Below the pieces are notes generated by a model. It was not told the DNA's origin. It worked only from the letters and a program-made list of their open reading frames with translations, and did no database searches. Both the position numbers and the translations under genes were made by a program. A DNA stretch of 64,000 nt from Jannaschia sp. CCS1 (GTDB taxonomy: Bacteria > Pseudomonadota > Alphaproteobacteria > Rhodobacterales > Rhodobacteraceae), in assembly GCF_000013565.1 (NCBI RefSeq), contig NC_007802.1, positions 3,534,001 through 3,598,000 of the forward strand. The letters run 5' to 3'. This document shows positions 44,447-61,837 of the stretch, one piece after another (within the stretch, counting starts at the first letter, position 1; each line of letters opens with the position of its first letter).

Positions 44447-44536
44447 GGAGACGTGGCCGAGTGGTCGAAGGCGCTCCCCTGCTAAGGGAGTAGGCGGGAA
44501 ACTGTCTCGAGGGTTCGAATCCCTTCGTCTCCGCCA
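44447..44536 (+). tRNA. tRNA-Ser (GCU anticodon), element attachment site
   Basis: A complete class II tRNA with a 7-base acceptor stem (GGAGACG with CGTCTCC), D-loop segment GAGTGGTCGAAGGC, anticodon loop CTGCTAA giving GCU, a long variable arm (TAGGCGGGAAACTGTCTC), T-loop GTTCGAAT, discriminator G and encoded CCA at 44534-44536. It decodes AGC/AGU serine codons. Its 3' end is the core of the attachment site of the downstream element and remains intact after integration. Confidence 0.97.
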
Positions 44537-46165: not shown

Positions 46166-46698
46166 GCGAGATAGCTTGGGGCAGCAAGTTTGGCTTGTGC
46201 AGAGCATCAAACCTCTGCTCGCATTACGGCTTGCGACGGCGCGCAAATCGGACGGTGTCATTTCCGGGCGTCGCGGCGTCGCGCAGCAGATTTGACCACC
46301 CACAGCCGCGACGTAACGGGGTGGAGGCCCCCCCGAATCATCCCGGTCCAGCTGGCTGCGATGACGCATTGGCGACATGACGAACTTCCCTCGATAGGCG
46401 AGATGCGAGAGCCGTTGGAGGGCAGGAAGGGGATGGCAAGATAAAGCGAGTTCCTCGCTGGCCGGGCCTGCGGCCCTAAGCTGTTGTCTGCACATTGTTT
46501 TTTGGGGGTCGATTTAGCACGGTGCTCTGTTTCCTGCCGCCAACACTTTCGCATTTCCTCTTGATTTCAATGGCTTGAACCGTGCCAGCGCGCGGCACGT
46601 TTACGCCAATCTACGCTACAGTTTCTCGTTGCAGGCCGGTTCACGAAGACCCGCAGACGGCTCTTGAACGGTCCTTTTGTGGCCCCGATGATCGTCTC
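46166..46698. other. Gap before the relaxase; possible oriT region
   Basis: No gene that I can support occupies this stretch. It lies directly upstream of the relaxase, where a transfer origin is often found, but no convincing nic-type inverted repeat was located by eye. Several short open frames in both strands look like chance. Confidence 0.3.
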
Positions 46699-48783
46699 AT
46701 GACCCGCAATGAGAACGATCTTCACATCCGCCCTGGCAAGGTCCGGGACCGCGCCCCGAGGGCTGAGCGCGTGGTGCGCCCGGCGCGGGGCTTCCTGGCC
46801 GATGTACACAGGGCGATCCGCCGGGCGGGTGGTGATCCGAACAAGTTGGCCGGGAGGGGTAAGGCGTCCGGACGGTACAACGCGCGCGGTCGCGGCGCGA
46901 AGGTCGTGGCAGAGTTGAAGGGCCGGAACCAATGGAGCCGGAGCGCCAATGGGACCCGGACCCGCGCCCGGCGGGTGACGGTGAAGGCGCGGATCGTGAA
47001 GCTGAACCCGCAGCGCGGCGCGGCGCGCGGGAGGTCCTTTGTCAGCGCAAAGGCGGTTGATGCGCATCTGCGGTATCTGCAGCGGGACGGCGTCACGTTG
47101 GACGGCGAGAAGGGTCAGGTTTACGCGAGAGACGATGACATCGCGGACGGCCGCGACTTCCTCGACCGGGGGCGCGGCGATCGCCATCAGTTCCGGTTCA
47201 TCGTTTCCGCCGAGGAAGGCGTGGAGCTTGACAACCTGCGCCAGACGACCCGCGATCTGATGGTCCAGATGGAGGTTGATCTGCAGACGACGCTCGATTG
47301 GATCGCCGTCAATCACTACAATACAGGGCATCCGCATAGCCACATTATCGTCCGCGGGGTGACCGATGACGGGAAGATCCTGAACATCGCGGGCGACTAC
47401 ATTGCGCACGGCATCCGCGAGCGCGCCAGCGAGCTCGTGACCCTGGAACTGGGCCGCCAGACCGACCTTCAAGTGACGGATCAGTTGCGTCGCGAAGTGC
47501 ACGCCGAGCGCTTCACCCGGCTCGACAAGATGCTGATGGCCGAGCAGCGGATTAACAGCGCGTTCGCCGATTTGCGACCGGACAAGGACATGCTGGAGAC
47601 GATGAAGCGCAACCGCGCGTTACTGATCGGGCGGGCGCAGTATCTCGAGAAGCTCGGGCTGGCGCTGAAGATCGATCCGGGCGTCTGGCACTTGCGCGAG
47701 AATGCGGAACCCGCTTTGCGGGCCATGGGCGAACGGGGCGATATCCTCAAATCGATATATCGCGCGCTGGAGGCGAACGATCTGGAGGTGCAACGCGGGG
47801 AGGCGCAACTCTCCATACACAGGGAAACACTGCAGAACCGGGTTGTCGGTCGCGTGCCCGCAAAGGCGCTTTCGACTGACGAGTCCCGCGACCGGATGCA
47901 GTTGGTCATCGACGGAACCGACGGCCAGGTGCATCAGATCGAACTGCGTGCTGACAGATGCGAGGACGTCGGGCGCGGCATGATCGTGTCGGCGGCACCG
48001 CCGTCGACGGAGCCCCGCGTGGCGGACCAAAACATCCTGGCGACGAGGGCGAGCGACGGGACGTATAGCCCGTCTCGGCACATTGAGATCGCTCGGGAGC
48101 GCAAGCTCAGCCCCGAACCGGAGCGCTATGTGGCATCCCATGTTAGGCGGCTCGAAGCCCTGCGGAGGTCGGGAATCGTCGAGCGATGGGACGAGAACCA
48201 TTGGTCGGTGCCGGAAGACCTACCGAAACAGGGACTGGCTTACGACCGCAAACGCCACGGTTCCGGCCCGCGCATGACCGTCCTTTCACCGATCAGTCTG
48301 GAGCGGCAGGTGACCCACGATGGCGCAACCTGGCTCGACCGGGAACTGGCGGAACAGCGGCAAGGATCGCTCCGGATGGCGGGCTTCGGCGCAGAGGCAG
48401 ACCAGGCGATGAACCGCCGCAAGCGGGTGCTGGTGGAGCGTGGTGATGCCATAGACCTCGGCAATGGTCGTATCCGCACGCCGAAGGACCTGATCCGGCG
48501 TCTGGAGGGACGCGAGGTGGAGCGAGTCGGGCGCGCGATGGCGGAAAAACAGGGTCTTCGCTGGCAACCTGTAGAGCCCGGCAGTCAGTTCGATGGTCAA
48601 CTAACCGGGAGCAGGCAACTGTCCAGCGGGCGCTTCGCCATGGTCGATGACGGCTTGGGCTTCAGTCTTGTGCCATGGAACGATGCGCTGGAGCAGCGCA
48701 TCGGGCGGCAGGTGTCCGGTGTCGGGATGCCCGGGGGCGGCATCGATTGGACGTTCGAGAGGCAGCGGGGGTTGGGCCGATAG
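46699..48783 (+). CDS. Relaxase/mobilization nuclease, VirD2-like with DUF3363
   Basis: 694 residues from the ATG at 46699 (TRNENDLHIRPGKVRDRAPR); an upstream ATG at 46582 lacks family similarity. The relaxase domain has the three-histidine metal motif in NHYNTGHPHSHIIVRG near residue 207 and an FRFIVSAEEGVELDNLR segment before it, as in DUF3363-type relaxases of alpha- and betaproteobacterial islands. The catalytic tyrosine is probably among the first 200 residues (for example in DAHLRYLQRDG). The C-terminal region ends with a region reading GIDWTFERQRGLGR, a usual tail. It nicks oriT and leads DNA transfer. No coupling protein follows it. Confidence 0.9.
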   Translation: MTRNENDLHIRPGKVRDRAPRAERVVRPARGFLADVHRAIRRAGGDPNKLAGRGKASGRYNARGRGAKVVAELKGRNQWSRSANGTRTRARRVTVKARIVKLNPQRGAARGRSFVSAKAVDAHLRYLQRDGVTLDGEKGQVYARDDDIADGRDFLDRGRGDRHQFRFIVSAEEGVELDNLRQTTRDLMVQMEVDLQTTLDWIAVNHYNTGHPHSHIIVRGVTDDGKILNIAGDYIAHGIRERASELVTLELGRQTDLQVTDQLRREVHAERFTRLDKMLMAEQRINSAFADLRPDKDMLETMKRNRALLIGRAQYLEKLGLALKIDPGVWHLRENAEPALRAMGERGDILKSIYRALEANDLEVQRGEAQLSIHRETLQNRVVGRVPAKALSTDESRDRMQLVIDGTDGQVHQIELRADRCEDVGRGMIVSAAPPSTEPRVADQNILATRASDGTYSPSRHIEIARERKLSPEPERYVASHVRRLEALRRSGIVERWDENHWSVPEDLPKQGLAYDRKRHGSGPRMTVLSPISLERQVTHDGATWLDRELAEQRQGSLRMAGFGAEADQAMNRRKRVLVERGDAIDLGNGRIRTPKDLIRRLEGREVERVGRAMAEKQGLRWQPVEPGSQFDGQLTGSRQLSSGRFAMVDDGLGFSLVPWNDALEQRIGRQVSGVGMPGGGIDWTFERQRGLGR

Positions 48784-49128: not shown

Positions 49129-49581
49129 ATGTTCGAAATGAGTCACGGAATTTCTGATGTCGTAGAGAGTTTTATCAAAGAAATCCGGAGCGATCATTGC
49201 ATGAATGTTGTTATTCGAGAACAACTAACAATGGGGAAATCCGGCGCTTTCGTAGCGATTGTGGATTGTTCGGGTGATCTCGATGGCATTCATATTTTGA
49301 AGGTCGATGCTCTCCCCGACGGATGGGAAAGTGAAGAAAGCCGTCACCGACGTGCGCTTCGCGTCGGAGCCTTTTCAAAGAAACTTCCTGAAATCGCCTT
49401 GAGTGTTAATTCAGAAACCCATTACTGCATGCTAATTAAGCTTGCAGGCCAATCCCGAATTGAATGGAGGCCATTGGTAGCTGACCATGGGCTATTCCGT
49501 TCTGCCTACATTGAATTTTCAAAGGCAGCCTGGACGCCAGACCTTTTTTTCTCGGAGATCAGCGCTCTGCCGTACAAGTAA
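49129..49581 (+). CDS. Kinase-fold protein, N-terminal part (gene broken by frameshift)
   Basis: 150 residues. The N-lobe cues of a protein-kinase/aminoglycoside-phosphotransferase fold are visible: the glycine-rich loop GKSGAFVAIV, and a strand ending HILKVD that would hold the ATP-contacting lysine. The protein then continues to AWTPDLFFSEISALPYK and stops. One base difference at the T7 run (49544-49550) would join it to the downstream frame, reading DLFFLGDQRSAVQVISNILGY and then the catalytic loop of the C-lobe. The 0-frame codons CTT TTT TTC form the slippery heptamer T TTT TTC, so programmed -1 frameshifting is possible; mutation or sequencing error are alternatives. AT-rich composition suggests acquisition. 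Confidence 0.65.
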   Translation: MFEMSHGISDVVESFIKEIRSDHCMNVVIREQLTMGKSGAFVAIVDCSGDLDGIHILKVDALPDGWESEESRHRRALRVGAFSKKLPEIALSVNSETHYCMLIKLAGQSRIEWRPLVADHGLFRSAYIEFSKAAWTPDLFFSEISALPYK

Positions 49582-49604: not shown

Positions 49605-50162
49605 TTGATCGAAGAAGAAGGGGGGCGCATCGAAAAAAATGTTTCTGAACTCATTGGGCCTGAATTCGTACAAAAGCCCATATTCATTCTGAATGGACAG
49701 GTTTTTCCTAATCCTGTCTTGTTCTCGAATTCAAGCATCCAGACTCCGGTTCTTCGCCCTCTTCTGGGACCCGTGCATGGTGATTGCCATAGCCAAAACG
49801 TATTTGTAAAGGCCGGCAAAGATTCCTCAGTTCTTGACCTAAGTATTATTGACTTAGCAACATTCCAACCCGACTCACCGATATTTTTCGATCATGCGTA
49901 CTTAGAGCTTGCAACATTGCTCCGAAAGCTGAACCAGTTGGGGGAGCGCCGTTGGTGCAATTTGGTGGAAGGCCTATCCAAAGAGTGTTCAGAGCAAAAA
50001 GTCGAGCCTAGCGAACGCGGATGGCTCGAGGACATTTTGGCTGCTCGCAAAGATGTTTTCCGATTGGCGGATGAGCAATATCCTGACCGACAAGACGATT
50101 TGCGCCTGCAATTTCTGCTTGCTCAAGTCAGCGCTGGTTTAGCTTTCCTGCACAAAATTTGA
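49605..50162 (+). CDS. Kinase-fold protein, C-terminal part (after frameshift; ended by IS)
   Basis: 185 residues from 49605, though the true reading enters this frame earlier, at about 49551. It contains HGDCHSQNVFVK, a catalytic loop of the aminoglycoside-phosphotransferase type (HGDxHxxN), and IIDLATF, in place of the metal-binding DFG. These fit the second lobe of the kinase that begins at 49129. The stop codon TGA consists of the first bases of an IS3-family inverted repeat at 50160, so the gene end is supplied by the insertion. An open frame in the same phase continues on the other side of the IS (51399-51521). Activity is doubtful in the present state. Confidence 0.6.
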   Translation: MIEEEGGRIEKNVSELIGPEFVQKPIFILNGQVFPNPVLFSNSSIQTPVLRPLLGPVHGDCHSQNVFVKAGKDSSVLDLSIIDLATFQPDSPIFFDHAYLELATLLRKLNQLGERRWCNLVEGLSKECSEQKVEPSERGWLEDILAARKDVFRLADEQYPDRQDDLRLQFLLAQVSAGLAFLHKI

Positions 50163-50182: not shown

Positions 50183-51043
50183 CTAATTTAGGTTAGCACT
50201 GTTCAGGTTCTGGTCTTCCTTTGACCGGTTAGCATATTCGTGTGGCGTCAGGCCAGCGAGGCTGGAGTGAGGCCGGTTTTGATTGTAGTCGGCGCGCCAT
50301 GCCGCGATCATGGTCGTTCATTTTCCGCCATTGGTCCGAGGACGATGGACGACGGCATGGCGCAGAGACGGGAACAGGTGTTCGTTGAGGCATTCCTCGC
50401 GCATCCTTCCATTGAAGCTTTCGACCAGGCCGTTCTGCATGGGCTTTCCAGGCGCGATGTAGTGCCAACCGACCTTGCGGTCCTCCTGCCATTTCAGCAT
50501 CGCATTGCTGGTCAATTCGGTGCCGTTGTCGCTTACCACCATGCAGGGGTAGCCGCGCAGTTCAGCGATACGATCCAGTTCGCGGGCGACGCGTGCCCCA
50601 CCTATGGATGTGTCCACCACGGCGGCCAGACATTCCCGCCTGAAGTCGTCGATGACATTCAGCACGCGGAACCTGCGGCCATCCTCCAGCGCGTCAGACA
50701 TGAAGTCGAGCGACCATCGCTGGTTCGGCCCCTGCGGGATCGCCATGGGCGTCCTCGTGCCCACAGCACGCTTGCGCCCGCCCCGTTTATGGACGGTTAA
50801 CCCTTCTTCGCGGTAGAGCCGATACAGCTTCTTCCAGTTCACCTCCCAGCCTTCTCGCTTCAGTAGGATATGCAGACGGCGATATCCGAACCGTCGCCGC
50901 TCGGATGCCAGCTCCTTCATCCGGGCCCGCAATTCCGTGTCGGCGGGGCGGTTCGACCTTCGCCGATACACACGCGGATCGATCCCGGCCAAGGAACAGG
51001 CCCGTTTCTGATTGTAACTCTTGGTCTTCATGGCCCAGTTCAC
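50183..51043 (-). pseudogene. IS3-family transposase OrfB, interrupted
   Basis: The frame starts near 51043 with [17 protein letters not shown] and has the DDE integrase core: [17 protein letters not shown] (first Asp), [11 protein letters not shown] (second Asp) and [17 protein letters not shown] (Glu). After LFPSLRHA the usual text should continue MIAAWRADYNQNRPHSSLAGLTPHEYANRS, but here 14 extra codons including a TGA (50318-50320) come in between; the normal tail resumes in the same frame to 50183. The transposase should therefore be truncated and inactive unless the stop is read through. Confidence 0.88.
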
Positions 51044-51398: not shown

Positions 51399-51521
51399 GA
51401 AGGAGCGGAGAATTGGTCAAACGGAGGCGAGGGTGAATTCTTCAAGTCACATAACACTCATCCTCTGGATTCTCTGCAGACATCGCTTCTAGTAGGGAGA
51501 TTTAAAGATCAGAAAGCTTAG
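51399..51521 (+). pseudogene. Possible 3' remnant of the kinase-like gene beyond the IS
   Basis: Immediately after the IS right end, an open frame of 40 codons (GAENWSNGGEGEFFKSHN and on to LVGRFKDQKA) runs to a TAG at 51519-51521. Its phase is that of the kinase-like frame that stops at the IS left end, as if the IS had cut one gene. There is no start codon at its head. I cannot match the segment to a family, so it may be another gene's end or chance. Confidence 0.4.
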
Positions 51522-53121
51522 AGATATCTACCAAACCTGCCTTTCGCATCATCGAAACCGGATAGGTTTCATTCATAGCGAAACGTTCTACAGTCAGACC
51601 TTGTTCGATCCTCCTCAAGCGTGCAAGGTTGCTTCTTGCGGCATCAGAGTCACCCAATTCGGCATGGAGACCGATCAGGTATCGAAGGGCTGGACGGTAA
51701 CGAGCGTTGAGGGCCCTTGCCCGCTCCGAATGGGCAACGGCTTTTTCGGGGTTGCCGGTTTCAACCGCCGTCGTGGCAAGCTGGAATTCTGTCCAGTATC
51801 GGAAGGTCGTTTCTCGTGAAAGAGAGTGCGCTGCGCTGGCTGCCTGATAAGCCATCTTGGGTTCGTTTGCGTTCAAGAGGGCGTTGGCGCGCGCGCTCCA
51901 AGCTAGGGGGTTTGAGGGATTGGCCAACACTGCCAATCTCGACAACTCCACGGCGGCCCCAAGGTCGTTGTCGAAGACAAGTCTTGCATGGGACACAGCC
52001 GCGAGGACGTTTGCGTTAGTTCCTTCTGCCGCCATGGCGCGGTAACAGAGTTCGTCGGCTAGATCTGCGAGTTCCTCCCGCCGCTCGCCGCCGGATTCAA
52101 CGTATTCAATCACGGCCAGTTGAGCCTGCCATGCCGAGTATAGGCCCCTAGGTCTGATGTTGTTGGCTTGCTGGAGCAGGTTGGCGGCTTCTCCAATGCT
52201 GCCCGGCAACATCGAAAACATCCGTCGCATTGCCATCCCGGCTAGGGAAATGGCGTCAATCTCGGATCCCGTGGACGGAGTCGCCTGTATCAGACGATCT
52301 ACCAAAGCGTCACAGCCCCGGTGGCAAAGATTTCGAAACGGCCAACCGGGATCCTCTCGGGGACCGGGGGCCTTTCCGGTTGCGCTATCGGACCAAAATT
52401 TTCCCTGACCGAGGCCCTCGAAAATTGACACGCGTATTCCGACCTGCCCCGCCGTTTCTGAATAAGCGTGCAGGTATAGGGCTACGGAGCCGCGACCATC
52501 GAGGTTTTGACCTGGCTCGACGAGGTCGACATCCAGCAATTCGCGCAGGGATCGATGTATCATTTCGGCGACCCGCGTTTCAAAGCGACCGAGCCAGCTG
52601 TCGAGTTCGTTTGCAGACTCGATGGTCAGTTGACGGGGAGACCGGACGGTTTCCTTTCTAATGAGCGGAGTGCTTGGTGATCCGTATCGGGCGGGCAGGG
52701 CCGCTTTGCCCTCTGCTGGCGGATCAGCCTCTGCTCGCTTTTGCGCCAACCAGTTTTCAAATTCCGGATCTCGAACATCAATACCTTCGAGAAACTCGCC
52801 CTCTCCTGCAGCAACAACCTCAACCTGCAGGGGATCGAGGCCGACCAATCCGCGATTGGTCACCAGAACGCCGGCTACTGGTCCGAGCGCCGTGCGTAAT
52901 TGAAAAATCAACTGTCTGAGGTTGTTGGCGCTTTGTGTATGGAGCCGGTCGCTCCACAACTTATCCTGAAGCCACGTTCGGCTTCGCGTCATGTGTTCTT
53001 CGGTTCCCAGAAGCGCAATCATGGCCTGAGCCTTCACGCTAGCCAGTTCGATGGGTGCTCCATTGGCACCAACAAGACGAAACCGTCCGTTCAAGTGGAT
53101 CTGAAGCGTAGACTCGGCCAA
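51502..53121 (-). CDS. SARP/BTAD-like transcriptional regulator with TPR-type C-terminus
   Basis: 539 residues. The first 100 or so form an OmpR-type winged helix as in SARP activators: LQIHLNGRFRLVGANGAPIELASVKAQAMIALL, then RTWLQDKLWSDRLHTQSANNLRQLIFQLRTALG. The middle (150-300) is unassigned. The C-terminal half has repeated helix pairs of tetratricopeptide type, for example NPLAWSARANALLNANEPKMAYQAASAA and NPEKAVAHSERARALNARYRPALRYLIGLHAELGDSDAARSNL. There is no membrane segment. It is divergent from the haloperoxidase-like gene across about 177 bases, so it is the likely controller of the cluster 53299-59016. Confidence 0.85.
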   Translation of the reverse strand: MAESTLQIHLNGRFRLVGANGAPIELASVKAQAMIALLGTEEHMTRSRTWLQDKLWSDRLHTQSANNLRQLIFQLRTALGPVAGVLVTNRGLVGLDPLQVEVVAAGEGEFLEGIDVRDPEFENWLAQKRAEADPPAEGKAALPARYGSPSTPLIRKETVRSPRQLTIESANELDSWLGRFETRVAEMIHRSLRELLDVDLVEPGQNLDGRGSVALYLHAYSETAGQVGIRVSIFEGLGQGKFWSDSATGKAPGPREDPGWPFRNLCHRGCDALVDRLIQATPSTGSEIDAISLAGMAMRRMFSMLPGSIGEAANLLQQANNIRPRGLYSAWQAQLAVIEYVESGGERREELADLADELCYRAMAAEGTNANVLAAVSHARLVFDNDLGAAVELSRLAVLANPSNPLAWSARANALLNANEPKMAYQAASAAHSLSRETTFRYWTEFQLATTAVETGNPEKAVAHSERARALNARYRPALRYLIGLHAELGDSDAARSNLARLRRIEQGLTVERFAMNETYPVSMMRKAGLVDISKLSDL

Positions 53122-53298
53122 ATCTTCTCATTTCCTTTCAGTATCAACATCCAAGAAAGGTCACCCGATACAGAAGCGAATCCTTCGTCGGATCAATCGT
53201 AGCATTATTCTTCCGTTATTTCCTAAGGTCGGACTTGCGATGTCGCTTCTGGCTCGGGCAAGCTTTACCCAACGGAAGCTGTGGGTAAGGAATAGGCT

Positions 53299-54384
53299 AT
53301 GTCTTCGGGATTTTTTTCAGGTGGCGCGCATGGGGGTGCTCACGGTGGCGCGCATGGGGGTGCCCACGGTGGCGCCCACGGCGGCGCACATGGGGGTGCC
53401 CACGGCGGCGCACATGGCATCATGCACGCCGGTGGCCCGCCGTCGTCACTGCTTAGCCATGGGCTGACAGTCAGTCATGACGGCACCATGGGGTATTGGG
53501 AGGGCGACGCTGATATTGCGGATCCTAGTTTAGGCCAAAATCCAGGCTCGCTTCAGTATCTCTCGCCTGATCAACGGCATCAGGTGCTCTTGGCCGAACT
53601 TCTTGGAGTGTTCAAGGCAAGAAGCCGGACGGGTTCGGCCTCCGTCAGGGTCCGCAATGCTGACATTGCGACGTTGGTGCCGCCTCCTACAAACGATTAC
53701 TTCGTAGGACAGCTAAAATTGCTTCGGGGCTATGCCGACCTTCGCAGTGATCGACATGCCGAGATCCTGGCGCAGACCGAGGACATAATGTCCTTCTTTG
53801 GTGCAATCGTGCATCTCAATTCGTCCCGGAGGGAACATACGATCGAGGTTCTCAACCTTGTACAAGCGCTTTGCGTCATGCTGGAAATGCAAATTAAACA
53901 CATGGTGCGTTGCCCGCGCCCCATAGATTTTTCGTCGCGGGTGCAGCCGATGATCCAAACACCGGCGCATTCATCCTTCCCCTCCGGCCATGCGGTTGAG
54001 GCCTATGCCGTTGCGACGGTCCTGTCTGATTTAGTCATGTCCGGAAGCGCACCCGACATCGAAAAAGAAGACGTGACTACAAGACTGCGTCAACTTGCTC
54101 ACCGGATCGCCGCCAATCGTGTTGTCGCAGGCTTGCATTTTCCGGCTGATAGCGCGGCTGGTGCGTTTCTCGGATCACAGATTGGCGCGGCCATCGTCGC
54201 CCTGACGAAGCCGCGGCAATCCTTATCACAAATCACCTATGGCAATAGCGTGAAATTGCCTCGAGACGGCGACTTCACTGTAAGATGGTTTGATGCAAAC
54301 TATGGACCGACCCCCGCAAGAGGGACGGCGACGATGCCTCGGCTGTCATTCAAATTCCGGTTGGCAAGGAGTGAATGGGCATGA
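53299..54384 (+). CDS. Vanadium-haloperoxidase/PAP2-like enzyme with N-terminal GGAH repeats
   Basis: 361 residues with AAGGA upstream of the ATG. Residues 8-39 are eight GGAH repeats. Then comes a helical domain whose active-site motifs match the vanadate/phosphate site of the PAP2-haloperoxidase superfamily: KHMVRCPRP near 200, TPAHSSFPSGHAVEAYAVA near 230, and RVVAGLHFPAD near 275-285. It lacks a signal peptide and the membrane helices of lipid phosphatases, so a soluble vanadium-dependent haloperoxidase-type enzyme or acid phosphatase is likely. The histidine-rich tail may bind a metal. It is the first gene of the cluster, followed by the subtilase after 27 bases. Confidence 0.85.
   Translation: MSSGFFSGGAHGGAHGGAHGGAHGGAHGGAHGGAHGGAHGIMHAGGPPSSLLSHGLTVSHDGTMGYWEGDADIADPSLGQNPGSLQYLSPDQRHQVLLAELLGVFKARSRTGSASVRVRNADIATLVPPPTNDYFVGQLKLLRGYADLRSDRHAEILAQTEDIMSFFGAIVHLNSSRREHTIEVLNLVQALCVMLEMQIKHMVRCPRPIDFSSRVQPMIQTPAHSSFPSGHAVEAYAVATVLSDLVMSGSAPDIEKEDVTTRLRQLAHRIAANRVVAGLHFPADSAAGAFLGSQIGAAIVALTKPRQSLSQITYGNSVKLPRDGDFTVRWFDANYGPTPARGTATMPRLSFKFRLARSEWA
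53320..53415 (+). repeat. Eight 12-bp repeats encoding GGAH
   Basis: Eight in-frame copies of a 12-base unit, roughly GGTGGCGCGCAT with synonymous changes, code for (Gly-Gly-Ala-His)8 right after the start of the haloperoxidase-like gene. A T7 run (53311-53317) precedes them. Units are 12 bases, so copy-number change would keep the frame, whereas slippage at the T7 run would switch the gene off. Confidence 0.9.
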
Positions 54385-54411
54385 CCCGAATAGTTGCCGG
54401 AGGCGGTGATC

Positions 54412-56451
54412 ATGACTAATTGGGAACAATGGGAAGGCACAATTGCCAATGCATACCTTCACTGGTTGGCGCGGCTCGACAGCAACGGTGAGTCAACGAT
54501 CAAAGGCTCCGACGTCTGGTTTTCCCGCTTTGCTGCACAACTTTTCCCTCCTGCTGGAACCAATTCAAACATTGACCGTTTTAACTCGGAAGATGGCATA
54601 TTGCGGGTGCTGCTTCCGCTCGCACCATATGTCGACATAAATGAACTGCCCAATGCGACCGGCCTAAAGGCGATTGTCGGCGTCATCGACACTGATATTC
54701 CCCTTGGTCATCGCGCGTTCCGGGACGAGAATGGGGCGTCGCGGGTGCTGTATCATTGGCAGATGGATTTTGGTGCGACCAACAACGGCAAGAGTTTCGG
54801 CAAAGGCGAAATTGATCGCCTGCTTGCTAAGCACTCAGGCGGACGACTGGACGGGACGCTTGACGCCACCAGTTTCAATTCGGAAATCGGCTCCCTCAGG
54901 ATGGAAGAGCCGCGCGGTCCCCGCGCCCTCCTTAGCCGCCATTCCCATGGTGCCCACGTACTGGACCTTGCGGCCGGGGCAAACGCCAGGGCCGCCTTGA
55001 TGGGGCTGCCAGACGATCCGTTCCCCCGCGATGTTGGAATCGTAACCATCGGCATCCCACCGCGCTGGGATTTCGGGGAAGCGGGCGAATTGTTGGACCT
55101 GATGATGCTTCTCGCCGTCAACCAGGTGTCGGATGTCGTTAGCAAGCTTTGGACAAAGGCGCACGGCGCGCCAAGCAAGCCAAGCGTGGGGATGGTTGGT
55201 TTTCCGACCGTCATCAACCTGGCCTTTGGTCGACAGGCCGGTTCGAAACGAAACGACGGCGGTTGGTTCCCGGTGGTGCTTGCAGAAATCAAGAAGGACG
55301 TCACATCCAACCGGGGAACGCAACCCGCACCATTTGAAGTCATCATGCCGGCCGGCAACGATAACCTCGGAAGGGTTGCAGCACGCTACGAGCTTGACCC
55401 AAATACGGAAGTTCAGATCCCCTGGCAAATTCTTCCTAGTGACCAGACCGACAACTTCGTCGAGGTATGGGCGGAAGGAACCGGAAGACGAAGCGCCACG
55501 CCAAGGTTGGAAATTGAATTGATCGCGCCGGGGGACCGACGTTCGGTGCCGATTGAAGGGCCACTTGGAAAGTATCTGGATGTATTAGACGACGGCAACC
55601 GGTTCGCCGCGCGCATCTACCGGCTGCGAGAGCCTGCGAAGGTGGACGCAGACGCAAGAAAACGACCCGGCTACCTTTTTGCACTTGGCCCCAGTGAGCC
55701 GCGGTCAGAGGCCTTGGGTGCCGTACCATCGGGAGCGTGGACCCTGTATTTACGTAATGCCGGCTCAGAAAAGCTGCTTGTCGAGGTCTCGGTTCAGACT
55801 GACCAGTCGGTGTTGCCATTGGCGGGATCATCTGGTCGATCCTACTTGGATGAACGGACCTATGAGGTCTTTGATGAGGCGGGCCGACTGAATGATGCGG
55901 TCCGGTGGGACGACGTCGCGCAAGAGTGGGTCCGCGACGAAGGATACGCCGGTGTGTTGCGGCACGGCACGATCAACGCGGCGGCAAGTCACGCAGTGGC
56001 CGAAACTGTGGGAGGGTACCGGCAATCGGACGGCATGCCGGCAAGCTACTCAGCCACTGGAAGCGGGCTCGAATCCGGGCACACGCCACCGAACCGCTCT
56101 GCCCCTAATTGCAGCCTAACCACCGACACGTCTGCTGTGTTGCCCGGGACATTAGCCGCCGCTGCGGGCGATGGATGCAGAGTGGCCATGCGCGGTACGA
56201 GTTTCGCGTCCGCCCGCGCAACCCGTATCGTGGCCGAAGCTTGGCGCGCCGCGACTGTCACGCCCCTTGATACGGCGGCCGCGATCCTTGAGCGGGCCGC
56301 GAGTCAACACGAGGCGACAGATCCTTTTCCGCATCGACCCTACTCACACAATACGACGGCCCATGAAGCGGCCTATCCGAAGTTCGGGTATGGACGCACC
56401 CCTCCGCCGGAAACAGATGGTTCCGGTAATCCGCCGCGCAGGGAGAAATGA
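54412..56451 (+). CDS. Subtilisin-like (S8) serine protease without signal peptide
   Basis: 679 residues from the ATG at 54412 (GGAGG eight bases before). The catalytic set of subtilases is present in order: Asp in VGVIDTDIPLGHRAF near 93, His in SRHSHGAHVLDLAAG near 178, the oxyanion Asn in MPAGNDNLG near 314, and Ser in MRGTSFASARATRIVAEAW near 596. The His motif (SHGAHV rather than GHGTHV) and the ending GTSFASAR rather than GTSxAxP are divergent. A beta-rich stretch of about 250 residues sits between Asn and Ser. No export signal is found, so it should act in the cytosol or leave by another route. It follows the haloperoxidase-like gene; a terminator stands at 56479. Confidence 0.87.
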   Translation: MTNWEQWEGTIANAYLHWLARLDSNGESTIKGSDVWFSRFAAQLFPPAGTNSNIDRFNSEDGILRVLLPLAPYVDINELPNATGLKAIVGVIDTDIPLGHRAFRDENGASRVLYHWQMDFGATNNGKSFGKGEIDRLLAKHSGGRLDGTLDATSFNSEIGSLRMEEPRGPRALLSRHSHGAHVLDLAAGANARAALMGLPDDPFPRDVGIVTIGIPPRWDFGEAGELLDLMMLLAVNQVSDVVSKLWTKAHGAPSKPSVGMVGFPTVINLAFGRQAGSKRNDGGWFPVVLAEIKKDVTSNRGTQPAPFEVIMPAGNDNLGRVAARYELDPNTEVQIPWQILPSDQTDNFVEVWAEGTGRRSATPRLEIELIAPGDRRSVPIEGPLGKYLDVLDDGNRFAARIYRLREPAKVDADARKRPGYLFALGPSEPRSEALGAVPSGAWTLYLRNAGSEKLLVEVSVQTDQSVLPLAGSSGRSYLDERTYEVFDEAGRLNDAVRWDDVAQEWVRDEGYAGVLRHGTINAAASHAVAETVGGYRQSDGMPASYSATGSGLESGHTPPNRSAPNCSLTTDTSAVLPGTLAAAAGDGCRVAMRGTSFASARATRIVAEAWRAATVTPLDTAAAILERAASQHEATDPFPHRPYSHNTTAHEAAYPKFGYGRTPPPETDGSGNPPRREK

Positions 56452-56478
56452 TCCGATAATGTTAGGATTGCCAAGATG

Positions 56479-56517
56479 AACCGGCGTCGCAAATGCGATG
56501 CCGGTTTTTTCTTTTTT
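56479..56517 (+). terminator. Rho-independent terminator after the subtilase gene
   Basis: An interrupted stem, AACCGGC-G-TCGCA with TGCGA-T-GCCGGTT, is followed by a run of Ts broken by a single C (to 56517). This is a strong intrinsic terminator and separates the haloperoxidase-subtilase unit from the lipoprotein gene at 56610. Confidence 0.88.
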
Positions 56518-56609
56518 GCAGAGACGGAAAACACAACAGAATCGGAATAACGCAAGACTAACGCCCGTCATGTCATCCTTGTCCGCGAACAATGAAAGGA
56601 TCTTGATCG

Positions 56610-57473
56610 GTGGATATGATAGCGGCTTATAAACGGACTTTCTTGGTTGCCCTCACTGCGATTGCGGCATCGGCGTGTTTTCAGCCGATATCGGACGATG
56701 CTGCTGGGTCCCTGGCTGCGTTGACCGAGCAGGCATCCTCGGCCCTGACCGCACCGATTGCGCTGCAACAAGCCAGCCATGGTGAGGCTTTCAATAACGC
56801 CCGACTGTGTGTCTACCTCGCCGGACGGTCGGATTTCGGCTTGGGCCAGAGCCCGGGGAACGCCGAAATCAGCCAATTGGCGCGGGATCAAGCGATGGTA
56901 GGTCAAGCTCTGCAGGCTTACCTTGCGGCCCTGCTTGAGGCCAGTCGTGGCGGCGGGATTGCAGAACTGCGCGCGGCGCAGGAAGAGTTCGCGACGGCGG
57001 CGGGCGCATTTGCAGGACAACTGGGTGCTCCTCCGGAAACGGCGGGACTTCTGCGACCGGTCCTCGCACTGGCCAACCAAATCGGGGAAGCCCGGCGGCA
57101 GTCGCGCATACGGCAAATCATGGACAGTATGATCGGCCCTCTGGCGGATCTGGAACGTCGAATGGAAGCGGATGTCGCGGTGGCAATTCGCGAGACAGAA
57201 GCCAGTCTGGAGCATTGGGACCGGGCGGCCTACTGCGTCTTGGCTACGCAACGCTCCCACAGTGCCTCCGTGGAGACCTTCAATGCCTACGACACGCGGC
57301 GCCGGGCAATGACGCGCCAGTTGGCTGCTGTTGCGCAAGGCCCTGAGATAATCCGTGAATTGACGAGGGTACATGTGCGGGTCGTGGAAGAGGATTTGCC
57401 GTTCGAAGACACGTTTGATGCCTTTGTAACGGCACTAGAGAACGTCGACGCATTAATTGACGCGCTAAGCTGA
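56610..57473 (+). CDS. Predicted lipoprotein of unknown function, helix-rich
   Basis: 287 residues from a GTG at 56610, chosen because AAGGA lies nine bases upstream; an ATG two codons later is also possible. The N-terminus YKRTFLVALTAIAASAC is a lipoprotein signal with a lipobox ending in Cys about 23. The rest is almost entirely alpha-helical (for example SQLARDQAMVGQALQAYLAALLEASRG and QIMDSMIGPLADLERRMEADVAVAIRETEASLEHWDRAAY), with coiled-coil-like stretches. I do not recognise the family. It is followed after 11 bases by a small helical protein, and the two may interact. Confidence 0.78.
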   Translation: MDMIAAYKRTFLVALTAIAASACFQPISDDAAGSLAALTEQASSALTAPIALQQASHGEAFNNARLCVYLAGRSDFGLGQSPGNAEISQLARDQAMVGQALQAYLAALLEASRGGGIAELRAAQEEFATAAGAFAGQLGAPPETAGLLRPVLALANQIGEARRQSRIRQIMDSMIGPLADLERRMEADVAVAIRETEASLEHWDRAAYCVLATQRSHSASVETFNAYDTRRRAMTRQLAAVAQGPEIIRELTRVHVRVVEEDLPFEDTFDAFVTALENVDALIDALS

Positions 57474-57484
57474 GGAGATTCCAA

Positions 57485-57808
57485 ATGACAATGACAACAG
57501 TTGCGCAAGTTCAAAGGAGCATCTCGAATGCACTTGGTGACCTGTATCGGATCGAACGCCATTCGGTCCAGATGACCCCGGCCCAGAAGAGAGCGGTGCA
57601 GGATACTATTCGGGCGTTGGAGGATGAGTATATCGCATTGCGCGGGTCCCCGGAGATTCAGAGCTACGCGGCCATCACACAACGGATCAACACAGCCAGA
57701 ACCGACCTCATCCGGATCAAGGATGAACGCAAACAACTCGAAAACCTGTTCGCCTCCGCGGCCAAGATTCTCGGGTCGACGACGCGGCTTCTGGCATTGT
57801 TGCCTTAG
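57485..57808 (+). CDS. Small helical protein of unknown function
   Basis: 107 residues with GAGGAG upstream of the ATG. The sequence is two long helices, SISNALGDLYRIERHSVQM followed by TPAQKRAVQDTIRALEDEY and later INTARTDLIRIKDERKQLENLFASAAKIL, with heptad-like leucines. No signal peptide or cysteine pair is present. It sits between the lipoprotein (11 bases) and the secreted glycine-rich protein (about 209 bases) and could be a cytosolic or periplasmic partner of either. No family is recognised. Confidence 0.7.
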   Translation: MTMTTVAQVQRSISNALGDLYRIERHSVQMTPAQKRAVQDTIRALEDEYIALRGSPEIQSYAAITQRINTARTDLIRIKDERKQLENLFASAAKILGSTTRLLALLP

Positions 57809-58017
57809 CAGGGTCGGCGCGATGAGACGGTATTCGCTCACCGATTGCCGAAGGGTCGACGAAGAAGACGCGTCGGGGCGGCACAGGGTCCGCGCCCCGC
57901 CAAAGAGTGAGCTCCGGCGCAATCCAACGACCGGACCTGCTAGGACCCGCTGATCCAAGTGAAAGCTGAAACCCCAGAGGGTCAGAGTCTCTGGTCCCAC
58001 AAAACATGGAGAAAATT

Positions 58018-59016
58018 ATGCGAAAGACACTGGTTATTGCAGCGTTGCTTGCCTCCTGCTGTATGGCGCAGGCCCAAGAACCCACGGAAATGTCGGAAGT
58101 CGAGACAGGAACACAAATCTACAACGTTGAGGAGCTACGTCTACCTCCCACCAATGGCGTGCTCGTCATCAGCGGTGAGCGCGTGTGGAATTCGTTCTTC
58201 GTGTCGGCCGAACGAATCGAATTCGAGCCGGGCGCAAGCCTGGTCTTTTCGGAAGACGCTGTCGCTATGCGCGGCAATTTATACGTAGTGGCAAACGAGA
58301 TCGTATCCCGGTCGCAGGAAGACCCCGGAACGATCACTTGGCGCCCCGGACCGCTTGGTGTGCCACCAGATCGTGGCAGCGCACCAGGGGCTGGCGGTTA
58401 TCCCGGTGACGAGCGACCAGGCAACCCGGGCCAGGCAGGGGCCGCTGGCAATGCAGGGTATTCGGGTGCGTCTGGCCCGAACTTGACATTCGTCGTTGGC
58501 GAGCCTTCGAGCCCCGTTGTGGTTGACCTCAGGGGCCAGGCTGGCGGTGCCGGCGGTCGGGGAGAGCAGGGAGGTCGCGGCGGCGTCGGCGGAAATGGTC
58601 GACAATCGTCACAGTCGGCTTTTGATTGCCGTCGCGGTGCCGGCGACGGCGGCCGTGGCGGCGCCGGCGCAGCCGGAGGATCAGGCGGCATTGGCGGGTC
58701 GGGCGGTCGCGGGGGGACTTTCATCCTGATGACAGAACGCGATGCCCTACCCGTGGCTTCCAGCCTATTCCGTGTCCGGCTTGCCCCAGGTGTCGGCGGC
58801 CCCGGCGGGGCTGGTGGCGACGGTGGTGCGGGTGGCGATGGAGGCCGTGGGGGTTCCCAGAGCTTGCCCTATTGCCGCGGTAACGGCTCCAACGGCCAGC
58901 CTGGGGCGCCTGGATCAACCGGCAGCCCGGGCGGTTCCGGACCACAGGGTGGTGACGGCGACTACATCATCGGCGGTCTGTCAGAGGCGGATCTGGTACG
59001 TGTCTTGCAGGACTGA
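58018..59016 (+). CDS. Secreted collagen-like glycine-rich protein
   Basis: 332 residues from the ATG at 58018 (GGAG six bases before). Signal peptide RKTLVIAALLASCCMAQA. An N-terminal segment of about 90 residues (LRLPPTNGVLVISGERVWNSFFVSAERIEFEPG) reads as beta strands, like a small beta-helix or filament domain. From about 105 on it is dominated by Gly-X-Y-like repeats (GGAGGRGEQGGRGGVGGNG; later GGAGGDGGAGGDGGRGG and GQPGAPGSTGSPGGSGPQGGDG) interrupted by FILMTERDALPVASS. Paired cysteines (FDCRR, PYCRG) could cross-link chains. It is likely exported and could form fibres at the cell surface. A stem-loop follows. Confidence 0.85.
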   Translation: MRKTLVIAALLASCCMAQAQEPTEMSEVETGTQIYNVEELRLPPTNGVLVISGERVWNSFFVSAERIEFEPGASLVFSEDAVAMRGNLYVVANEIVSRSQEDPGTITWRPGPLGVPPDRGSAPGAGGYPGDERPGNPGQAGAAGNAGYSGASGPNLTFVVGEPSSPVVVDLRGQAGGAGGRGEQGGRGGVGGNGRQSSQSAFDCRRGAGDGGRGGAGAAGGSGGIGGSGGRGGTFILMTERDALPVASSLFRVRLAPGVGGPGGAGGDGGAGGDGGRGGSQSLPYCRGNGSNGQPGAPGSTGSPGGSGPQGGDGDYIIGGLSEADLVRVLQD

Positions 59017-59764: not shown

Positions 59765-59861
59765 CCGGCATCTCTTTGGGGGCATTTGAGCAGCTTCCCC
59801 GGGCTTCCCCCGCCACCGCGTGTCTGACGCGATCCGGAACAATGCCCTGTTCTTCCGCTAG
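59765..59861 (+). pseudogene. Remnant of a second, related integrase gene
   Basis: Right of attR, the bases encode TGISLGAFEQLP, then after a 2-base loss GFPRHRV and SDAIRNNALFFR before a TAG. The intact integrase reads TGVSLKAFEQFPEGFPRYRNRA and continues into a similar helix at the matching place (gene positions 45654-45760). At DNA level about 45 bases align closely. This is what is left of an integrase from an earlier or tandem element at the same tRNA site. Confidence 0.75.
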
Positions 59862-61603
59862 ATGAAGACATCCGCGACGCGCCATCCCATTGTGAGCAGA
59901 ATCTTCAGACTTCCTGGGAAGGCGACAAGCACGACAACCGGCAAGACGGCAAGCGCAGCCCAACATCCGTAAAACAAGACACCTCTCATCGATACCAGCA
60001 CCCCTACGGAGACGTCGAAGTCACCGACCCGGCGGGCTTGAATAAGTCGTCTGGCTGCAATCCTCTCGATCAATCTCTGCGTCAGTGCTCCCGACGCCAA
60101 AGGGGCGACCACGAATGCATAATGGAGCCATGTCCAGACAATCGTCGTGAGAGCCATGGTTGTGAGCCAAAGACCCTCCCCCCAAGGATCTGCCGCGCTT
60201 CTTTCCAGAAACTCGCCACTCATTGTCTCAACCCCGACGCTCCACGTGACCCCGTTCAACGCCAAACCTATGACGACCACCGTCAACACCATGAAGATGA
60301 CGGCAAGCGCCATATCCACTGCTATGTAGACCGCAATGGTGCCTGAGCGTGCGCCCGAAAAAACGATATATCGTCCGATCGCATGGCTTATCCCGAGTGA
60401 AATAAAATCCAACGCAGCATTGGCCAAAGGCAGCGCGAGCCATGTGACCGAGAACAATCCAAGTGTTCCATCGGAGATAGCAACAGAATCGTTTGCCAAC
60501 ACAAGCCCCGCGAAGGACACCAGCCCGCCACTCGCGACGCCTCCGCCCGCAGCGGCCAGTTGGCCCGGGCGCAATCTGGACATGCGGGCGGCAATCAGGC
60601 TGCTCACCAATCCGGCGCAGGTGCCGACGATCCCCCCGATGATGAAGCCCTCACTCAACGACGTGACAAGTGCCAGCAATGTGTCATCGGTCAAGCCGGA
60701 GCTGATCGCCGCCATCAGACCGAATATGATACCGCCTGTCGCGCCGTAAAATGCCGCCCGTTTTGGAGGCAGGGTTGAAATCGCCGCGCAACTTGGCACC
60801 GTGAACAACACCGCCGCAGTCAGGGATGCGGTGCCGAAATAGTCGACCACTCCGCACGCCACCCCGGCAATCAACGCCAGACATCCAAGTCTGATCGCGA
60901 TTTGCCGCTCCGTCAGGGAGTTAAGGCCAAACTCACGCACCAGCCGCCAGCACCATGCAAAGGCCAAACCCAAAACGACGAAGCCGATACATTGCAGGAC
61001 GATCCCGAATCCGGCACCGGCCCAGTTCCGCACCCGAAACGGATTGACACTTCCAAGGAAGATATCTCCATGGAAGAAACTCACCAATCCGGCCAAAACC
61101 ACGTAGAGCAGACCGAGTGCGTAACAGGTCAGCAGGCTTTGCAGGCTGAATGGACGCCCTGTCCAGATCGCCAGAAATTCTAACCCGCCGATCAATCGTT
61201 CGCGGTAAATCTCGAACATGGACCGTTGAAGCATCGTGGCCATGTGTCGGTTCAAGAAACGGGCAATGGCACGGTCTTCGATGGCGAATTGGTCTGGCGC
61301 GTGTTTGGCCTCCAGCGCGCGCAGACGTTCTTCGGTCGGCAAAGGGCCATTGGCAGACGGCCAGCGCAGTGAGGTCGGAATGTCTCCCCGGTTCAGACCG
61401 AGAGGTCCGCTCAACTTTCTGGCGGTGTTTGGCGTGATTTTCGTCAGGCGGTTGTTTTCGATCGCGGATATGAAGGACTTGCGATCCGGGTTTCCCAATG
61501 CCGCCTCCGCAAGCGCTTCTTGGCTCAACCCCAGATCAAGCCTGCGTTTGCGAACCAGTCGCCCGAATTCTTCACAGTCGTCCCGTGCAGCATCGGGATC
61601 CAT
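59858..61603 (-). CDS. XRE-type DNA-binding domain fused to a polytopic membrane protein
   Basis: 581 residues from the ATG at 61603, seven bases after GGAGGG. The first 75 residues contain an XRE-family helix-turn-helix, FGRLVRKRRLDLGLSQEALAEAALGNPDRKSFISAIENNRLTKITPNTARKL. From about 155 onward the protein is a series of 11-13 hydrophobic helices, including glycine-rich ones such as GATGGIIFGLMAAISSGL and GGIVGTCAGLVSSLIAARM. A DNA-binding domain on a polytopic membrane protein of this size is uncommon and would place DNA at the membrane. I cannot name the family. It is divergent from the membrane protein at 61838. Confidence 0.78.
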   Translation of the reverse strand: MDPDAARDDCEEFGRLVRKRRLDLGLSQEALAEAALGNPDRKSFISAIENNRLTKITPNTARKLSGPLGLNRGDIPTSLRWPSANGPLPTEERLRALEAKHAPDQFAIEDRAIARFLNRHMATMLQRSMFEIYRERLIGGLEFLAIWTGRPFSLQSLLTCYALGLLYVVLAGLVSFFHGDIFLGSVNPFRVRNWAGAGFGIVLQCIGFVVLGLAFAWCWRLVREFGLNSLTERQIAIRLGCLALIAGVACGVVDYFGTASLTAAVLFTVPSCAAISTLPPKRAAFYGATGGIIFGLMAAISSGLTDDTLLALVTSLSEGFIIGGIVGTCAGLVSSLIAARMSRLRPGQLAAAGGGVASGGLVSFAGLVLANDSVAISDGTLGLFSVTWLALPLANAALDFISLGISHAIGRYIVFSGARSGTIAVYIAVDMALAVIFMVLTVVVIGLALNGVTWSVGVETMSGEFLERSAADPWGEGLWLTTMALTTIVWTWLHYAFVVAPLASGALTQRLIERIAARRLIQARRVGDFDVSVGVLVSMRGVLFYGCWAALAVLPVVVLVAFPGSLKILLTMGWRVADVFI

Positions 61604-61837
61604 ACGACCGCCCTCCAAATCCATGGGTTACAGAGATTTGTAACCTTTTAGTCACCGCCGGTGCACGACCAGACACCTAAGAAAGCTCTCAGCGAACGAG
61701 GTGACGTCGGCGCTGACCAGATCGGCTCGAAGTTGTCTCTCGGTTGCACAGAAAACTATGGGAATTTCGCAATCCCGTCGAGCCTGTCGCTTTGCGAACT
61801 GAGCCTCGATGCGGGTCTGATGCAGGAGGAGGTCGCC

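Follow-up and report, generated by a model that had tools for sequence, protein, structure and literature searches.

What are six genes of very different kinds doing side by side in the genome of the alphaproteobacterium Jannaschia sp. CCS1, and do they form one system? They lie near the end of a 64,000-nucleotide stretch of contig NC_007802.1 (positions 3,534,001 to 3,598,000 of the forward strand; hereafter the window), and an earlier note on this DNA had read them as a single cluster. All six open reading frames (ORFs) are present (Table 1), and the window looks like a widespread three-gene module followed by a separate neighbour unit, with a terminator between them. The module, of which the window holds one copy, comprises a regulator with a TPR half, a soluble enzyme of the PAP2 superfamily and a cytosolic subtilase; the regulator and PAP2 genes are divergent, and the PAP2 and subtilase genes run in the same direction. 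At its N-terminus the PAP2 enzyme carries a short, exactly repeated peptide, and it is this peptide array that has become the main subject of our analysis.

The association of the three genes exceeds chance. A search for the subtilase across the order (292 genomes, E <= 1e-10) gave a match in 57, the own genome among them, and a PAP2 relative adjoins the subtilase in 29 of the 29 best foreign loci (L003-L031). Regulator, PAP2 enzyme and subtilase are all present in 21 of 21 contexts of 20 kb (20 foreign places and the window), once a PAP2 ORF miscalled in two of them had been recovered by a second look. Around 125 distinct PAP2 loci, a subtilase lies within 3.5 kb in 119, a regulator in 123 and both in 117; the loci without a detected subtilase are mostly short or distant, and one, L063, has an annotated S8 gene that the profile missed.

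The array is nearly as constant as the module itself. In the window the PAP2 protein starts with MSSGFFS and continues with eight GGAH units, a repeat found in this gene only within the own genome; the earlier note had described it as a tail, but it is an N-terminal head. Among 137 PAP2 ORFs, 133 have a short perfect peptide repeat near the start, one has none and three (L064, L097, L134) have unreadable letters there. Leaving out these three and eight whose last 150 residues are the same as those of another, a near-perfect array is found in 125 of the 126 readable distinct family members, some of the 125 still coming from close relatives. The sole exception is a 293-residue ORF in locus L114, where a second PAP2 ORF has a GS array. 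All 12 plasmid loci, included in the 125, have an array. As a control we examined other PAP2 proteins, from relatives and from the own genome: 30 of 38 places had loci, five of these had no match to the family model and were left unscored, and the array is present in 12 of 12 family members, some of which also count among the 125, but in none of the 13 other PAP2 proteins. Similarly, in 108 loci retained after 114 had been reduced by overlap (107 with the module plus L178; ORFs from our own predictions), an array of at least four copies occurs in 95 of 98 members of the PAP2 cluster and in 0 of 1254 other predicted proteins.

Across the 125 arrays the unit is two to five residues long, and there are 73 different units after rotation. 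Period 3 accounts for 81 arrays, period 4 for 35, period 5 for five and period 2 for four, with median copy numbers of 8, 8 and 9 for periods 3, 4 and 5 (the last from five arrays only) and 12.5 for period 2; it is the number of units, not the length, that is held steady. The nearest methionine lies a median of four residues upstream, and in eight of the 125 either no methionine is found upstream within the ORF or it falls inside the unit. Glycine makes up 43% of the units, followed by Ala, Ser, Asn and Gln, and there is no Cys or Trp. A metal-binding tag was rejected as a general explanation, as 12 of the 73 units contain His. A frameshifting contingency locus was also set aside: the arrays are in-frame repeats of two to five codons, and they were sought in the protein, where other kinds would be invisible. 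A full-text search of the open-access PubMed Central (PMC) literature returned no description of the three-gene module or the array in the titles and abstract starts of the matches listed. We know of no described system with a conserved array architecture whose sequence changes between lineages yet is uniform within a locus.

The array unit is kept at the protein level while its codons differ. Within arrays 80% of the DNA units are distinct (five different among eight in the window), and codon differences number 1769 synonymous against 62 non-synonymous, where random changes would give an expected synonymous share of about 28%. Sixteen of the 62 fall in inner units, and 87 of the 125 arrays have none; the figure of 62 is an underestimate, because arrays were seeded on perfect repeats in the protein and lengthened only through units that agree in at least half.

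The unit is also exchanged for another between lineages. It is common to 21 of 23 pairs of PAP2 cores with at least 75% identity, and to 45 of 7440 pairs below 45%. At 60% identity or more, 36 of 59 pairs have the same unit, 13 differ at one unit position and 10 at two, and none (0/59) differs in unit length. Changes that run through nearly all copies separate sister loci with GGAD and GGAN (72% identity), NAR and NAQ (70%) and SGD and SSD (88%), and one GGAD unit found inside a GGAN array is a possible intermediate. In each of four genomes with two module copies, the copies carry different units. These observations raise the question of what keeps codon-diverse peptide copies identical, and what makes the copies change together.

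To ask what such an array might serve, it is useful to consider the protein that bears it and its two partners. The earlier note had likened the PAP2 enzyme to vanadium haloperoxidases, which the fold search does not place nearest. Its AlphaFold model has an overall predicted local distance difference test (pLDDT) score of 88, with residues 1-42 below 50, and its best structural matches are class A acid phosphatases (7f17, template modelling score on the target 0.75, E 1.8e-6); haloperoxidases rank after these, and a sequence profile search also put an acid phosphatase first. Class A acid phosphatases are exported by a signal peptide and share the signature KX6RP ... PSGH ... SRX5HX3D. This pattern is found in the PAP2 enzyme, with Asn in place of Ser before R274: K200, R207, H231, R274, H280 and D284 are invariant in 45 of 45 alignment rows, as is P208, and S229 and G230 are kept in 43 and 40 rows, respectively. 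As modelled, the enzyme resembles class A acid phosphatases (PhoN/PhoC, 7f17), with which it shares fold and catalytic pattern, more than vanadium haloperoxidases, which belong to the same superfamily and give weaker structural and profile matches. Any haloperoxidase activity of the enzyme would be putative, and some other loci encode a bromoperoxidase separately, in a gene nearby. Unlike PhoN/PhoC, the enzyme has no visible signal peptide, is 361 residues long (212-217 in 7f17), carries the N-terminal array and is encoded with a subtilase and a regulator. Hydropathy detects no hydrophobic stretch at its N-terminus, where class A enzymes have their export signal, and 0 of 125 PAP2 cores pass the hydropathy threshold, in a test coarse enough that even the two secreted-looking window proteins reach only 1.57 and 1.43.

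The catalytic motifs of both enzymes are complete, as first reported, and conserved across the family alignments. In the subtilase the triad is Asp99/His185/Ser603 with Asn322 at the oxyanion position; His, Asn and Ser are conserved in 26 of 26 rows and Asp in 25. The absence of a signal peptide, also claimed earlier, agrees with the same coarse test, in which the three module proteins of the window show neither a membrane segment nor a hydrophobic N-terminus; across the family, 3 of 119 subtilase domains pass the threshold. By profile, the nearest solved relatives are the Csp germination proteases, enzymes that switch on a hydrolase by cutting off its N-terminal propeptide. The partner of the module subtilase is instead the PAP2 enzyme, and to our knowledge spore genes are not expected in module-bearing bacteria (no search for them was made).

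For the regulator, the earlier label of a SARP/TPR protein holds for the TPR half and is less secure for the SARP half. At E <= 0.001 Pfam recognises nothing in the window protein, whose own TPR matches are weak and below the cut-off; among 25 homologues, TPR_2 is found in 16, Trans_reg_C in three and a guanylate cyclase domain in two. Its AlphaFold model (pLDDT 85) is helical from about residue 290, and the listed structural neighbours are mainly TPR proteins, one of them titled as a TPR protein with an unusual peptide-binding site. The SARP assignment leans on a motif in the N-terminal half that we take to be of this type, and on a distant homologue annotated SARP with a weak AfsR match (E 0.0042). 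Any likeness to SARP/BTAD regulators of the AfsR type would concern the N-terminal half, and the module protein differs from them in its TPR half and in the Trans_reg_C or guanylate cyclase domains of some homologues.

We tentatively propose that the array serves as a multivalent recognition tag for a partner from the same locus, with the subtilase trimming it and the regulator sensing it. The array would most probably be recognised by the subtilase, by the TPR half of the regulator, or by both; trimming or removal of the tag by the subtilase would change the phosphatase's activity or its partner; and the regulator would register the state of the tag and set how strongly the operon and nearby cargo genes are transcribed. 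A locus-specific tag sequence would keep parallel modules in one cell apart. We lean towards this proposal because the array is near-obligatory, predicted to be disordered, uniform, steady in unit number and exchangeable, because the three genes co-occur and the catalytic residues of both enzymes are conserved, and because TPR folds commonly bind peptides and Csp proteases provide a precedent for propeptide removal.

Several points weigh against a recognition tag. Contact between a partner and the array is an inference; two-residue units (GQ, NK, GS) are short for specific recognition; and the different units of paralogous modules may simply reflect different clades. Covariation gives a mixed answer. 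Among equal-length units, unit similarity is correlated with similarity of the TPR half given the PAP2 core, the subtilase and the rest of the regulator (partial r 0.207, 0/400 permutations within unit length). When permutations were further confined to PAP2 clades, this signal stood at the loosest cut (0/300) but was lost at the two tighter ones (55/300 and 162/300), where the PAP2 core gave a stronger result (10/300 and 2/300), so that phylogeny may explain it. For the subtilase, a partial correlation of 0.28 over all loci comes largely from unit length, being -0.05 for three-residue units and 0.135 (32/500) for four-residue units. Close pairs that share a unit are more alike in each of the five segments compared, the TPR half most, and thus no single reader is picked out.

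A wider proposal, which we consider less probable, takes the array to be an exchangeable, locus-specific peptide barcode carried by a cytosolic phosphatase. Selection would keep the barcode uniform within a locus, lineages would differ through swaps that often alter a single position across almost every copy, and the barcode would insulate modules from one another and control oxidative cargo such as vanadium bromoperoxidase. The natural array swaps (73 units, and two module copies in the own genome) are ready test material for these proposals.

A uniform array might instead be a self-association tag, through which PAP2 chains would stack or condense exclusively with those that share their unit. 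The uniform units, their glycine-rich composition and a head predicted to be disordered would all suit self-association of this kind. We think it rather unlikely, as for some units (GGK, GGGR, GGE, GGAD) all copies bear charge of one sign and ought to repel each other when stacked, and the head is without predicted ordered structure.

A locus that combines a TPR-half regulator, a protease and a repeated short peptide also brings to mind RRNPP-type quorum sensing, in which case the subtilase would cut the array into short peptides to be sensed by the regulator. As described in PMC11343458, extracellular proteases cut tandem pheromone propeptides, which TPR Rap receptors then read, and of published systems these RRNPP/Rap-Phr propeptides would be the nearest analogue. 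In the module, however, the repeat is fused to an enzyme, its two- to five-residue units are shorter than the six-residue pheromones named there, their number is steady at about eight, and no export signal is seen on the PAP2 enzyme or the subtilase (by hydropathy only). Of the features of an RRNPP receptor, the TPR half is found through homologues and fold neighbours, and peptide binding by the module regulator is putative. We therefore regard a store of peptide signals as distinctly unlikely.

It is improbable that the array is a substrate of peptide-modifying enzymes, with the PAP2 core as carrier, in the manner of ribosomally synthesized and post-translationally modified peptides. A gene for an aKG-HExxH peptide hydroxylase does follow the distant locus L063, a protein with PatG domains is encoded after the module of L102, and YcaO and haem-peroxidase genes lie near a lipoprotein gene pair in L178, which has no array gene. 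Such neighbours occur at single loci only, and none of the window genes tested has a peptide-modifying match.

Slippage occurs in these arrays, and a disordered head could act as a spacer, so that the array might be a neutral by-product or plain spacer at a tolerant N-terminus. Identical DNA units two apart are commoner than expected (76 against 38.5), which suggests that slippage may act on unit pairs; a few arrays, e.g. those of L121 and L089, contain higher-order DNA repeats; and the NSF array found on plasmids of nine Phaeobacter strains (of 21 matched Phaeobacter records) varies in copy number, with five in one P. piscinae and six or seven in P. inhibens and P. gallaeciensis. Identical DNA units side by side are, by contrast, rarer than expected (32 against 43.5, a count matched or undercut by 10 of 500 shuffles), and most arrays have not arisen by recent duplication of a single unit. 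Given also the near-universal occurrence of the array, its synonymous excess, its steady copy number and its absence from the 13 other PAP2 proteins, we judge a neutral origin quite improbable.

The six-gene surface-fibre or defence cluster of the earlier note is scarcely credible: the six genes are contiguous in the window, but genes 4-6 (the lipoprotein-like, small and Gly-rich proteins) are not found with genes 1-3 elsewhere, a terminator-like site separates the two sets and no match to a defence family is convincing.

The earlier note had proposed asking whether the whole set co-occurs in other genomes, and when this was done only the regulator, PAP2 enzyme and subtilase did. Neither the 20 other 20-kb module contexts nor the remaining module loci of the 108-locus set contain a relative of genes 4-6, and a six-gene unit was rejected on this ground. 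The lipoprotein was searched in the order sample and has a relative in one of the 291 other genomes; that relative (in L178) adjoins a small-protein relative of 52% identity, no separate search having been made for the small protein, and neither a PAP2 nor a subtilase gene lies in the 16-kb stretch around it. At L178:4188-8582 the pair adjoins the YcaO gene and a gene for an animal haem peroxidase. Beyond module loci the Gly-rich protein was searched in the own genome only, where it has no further copy. Since the module recurs without genes 4-6, and the lipoprotein relative without the module, we consider these to be two units. The terminator noted earlier between subtilase and lipoprotein gene does correspond to a terminator-like hairpin, with 13 pairs and nine T in a tail of 10; the region has six terminator-like sites, a number not above the mean of 8.7 in shuffled sequences. 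None of the last three genes gives anything above the Pfam cut-off. The supposed collagen-like fibre protein is indeed Gly-rich (24% Gly) and secreted-looking, although its composition is GGX-rich and it has no Pfam match. A defence or phage origin found no support: a PADLOC scan of eight proteins gave only two weak LmuB matches (E 0.016 and 0.029), both to the small protein, and in viral contigs only 14 distant PAP2 matches turned up, of which the longest spans 110 query residues.

In other genomes the module repeatedly has peroxidase-type genes as neighbours. Of the 108 loci, 15 have a member of a protein cluster to which a vanadium bromoperoxidase belongs, each time within two predicted genes of the subtilase; one member matched a solved structure (E 1e-98) and three members have no Pfam match. 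These 15 loci belong mostly to one clade (units NSQ, GNQ, NHQ and GGQ), with other units in L039, L040, L081 and L143. A haem-peroxidase cluster occurs in nine of the 108, in five of them within two genes, and the two members tested match Pfam An_peroxidase. The 292-genome sample has 22 bromoperoxidase places, 7 of them no more than 4 kb from a subtilase, and 51 haem-peroxidase places, of which 5 are as close, where 0.03 and 0.05 would be expected in 4-Mb genomes; one place in each count is the query itself, taken from a module locus, and its removal leaves 6 of 21 and 4 of 50. Rows that belonged to one split match were joined manually, which brought 26 rows down to 22 places and 55 to 51, and subtilase rows were treated in the same way. 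The window copy of the module has neither a bromoperoxidase nor a haem-peroxidase neighbour, so the oxidant chemistry once guessed for it gains indirect support from other genomes and none from the window. The link with peroxidase genes suggests a system by which marine and soil bacteria would control oxidative chemistry.

Named relatives of the module belong mostly to Rhodobacterales and Hyphomicrobiales, with some Burkholderiales, and lie on chromosomes and plasmids; those from the genome-contig scan are the best 80 of at least 538. In a sample of the phylum the PAP2 profile matches 20 of 398 genomes (E <= 1e-20). A second module of the own genome, located at about C2:1555984-1560985, has the unit QHG and is followed by a Rieske oxygenase gene (L179, G000:C2:1549000-1567000). 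On a Rhizobium leguminosarum plasmid (L063:4626-12320), a SARP-annotated regulator, a PAP2 enzyme with an NK array and the S8 gene are found with the peptide hydroxylase and a ThiF-like protein. A contig named Enemella evansiae, an actinobacterium, carries an NSQ array (L116) on a PAP2 core 65-67% identical to those of Mameliella and relatives, and this locus represents either transfer or contamination.

Table 1. Features of the module and of the adjoining genes, in window coordinates
Feature	Coordinates	Strand	Remarks
TPR regulator, SARP-like	51502..53121	-	539 aa, TTG start; N-terminal DNA-binding half presumably SARP-like (by motif), middle domain, C-terminal TPR half
PAP2-superfamily soluble phosphatase-like enzyme	53299..54384	+	361 aa; Pfam PAP2 1.8e-11
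N-terminal peptide array of PAP2 enzyme	53320..53418	+	8 x Gly-Gly-Ala-His and final Gly, residues 8-40; codon-diverse, predicted disordered
Cytosolic S8 subtilase	54394..56451	+	685 aa, TTG start, in-frame ATG 18 bases further in; Pfam S8 5e-6
Terminator-like hairpin with T tail	56478..56507	+	Between subtilase and lipoprotein-like gene
Lipoprotein-like gene, outside core module	56610..57473	+	Pfam: no match of note
Small protein, paired with lipoprotein-like gene, outside core module	57485..57808	+	
Secreted-looking Gly-rich (GGX) protein, outside core module	58006..59016	+	Pfam: no match

Upstream of the module, the kinase-like region consists of two ORFs (49129-49581 and 49605-50162), of which only the second matches TCAD9/EcKL, below the cut-off. 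A transposase with an integrase core (rve, HTH_21; 50318-51043, minus strand) lies between these ORFs and the regulator. Further upstream, a 733-aa ORF (46582-48783) resembles a relaxase by eye, no relaxase search having been made, and a tRNA-Ser gene is found at 44447-44536; the two are consistent with a mobile element. Beyond the Gly-rich gene, positions 59858-61624 (minus strand) encode a 588-aa protein with an N-terminal HTH and, by eye, a multi-pass membrane region.

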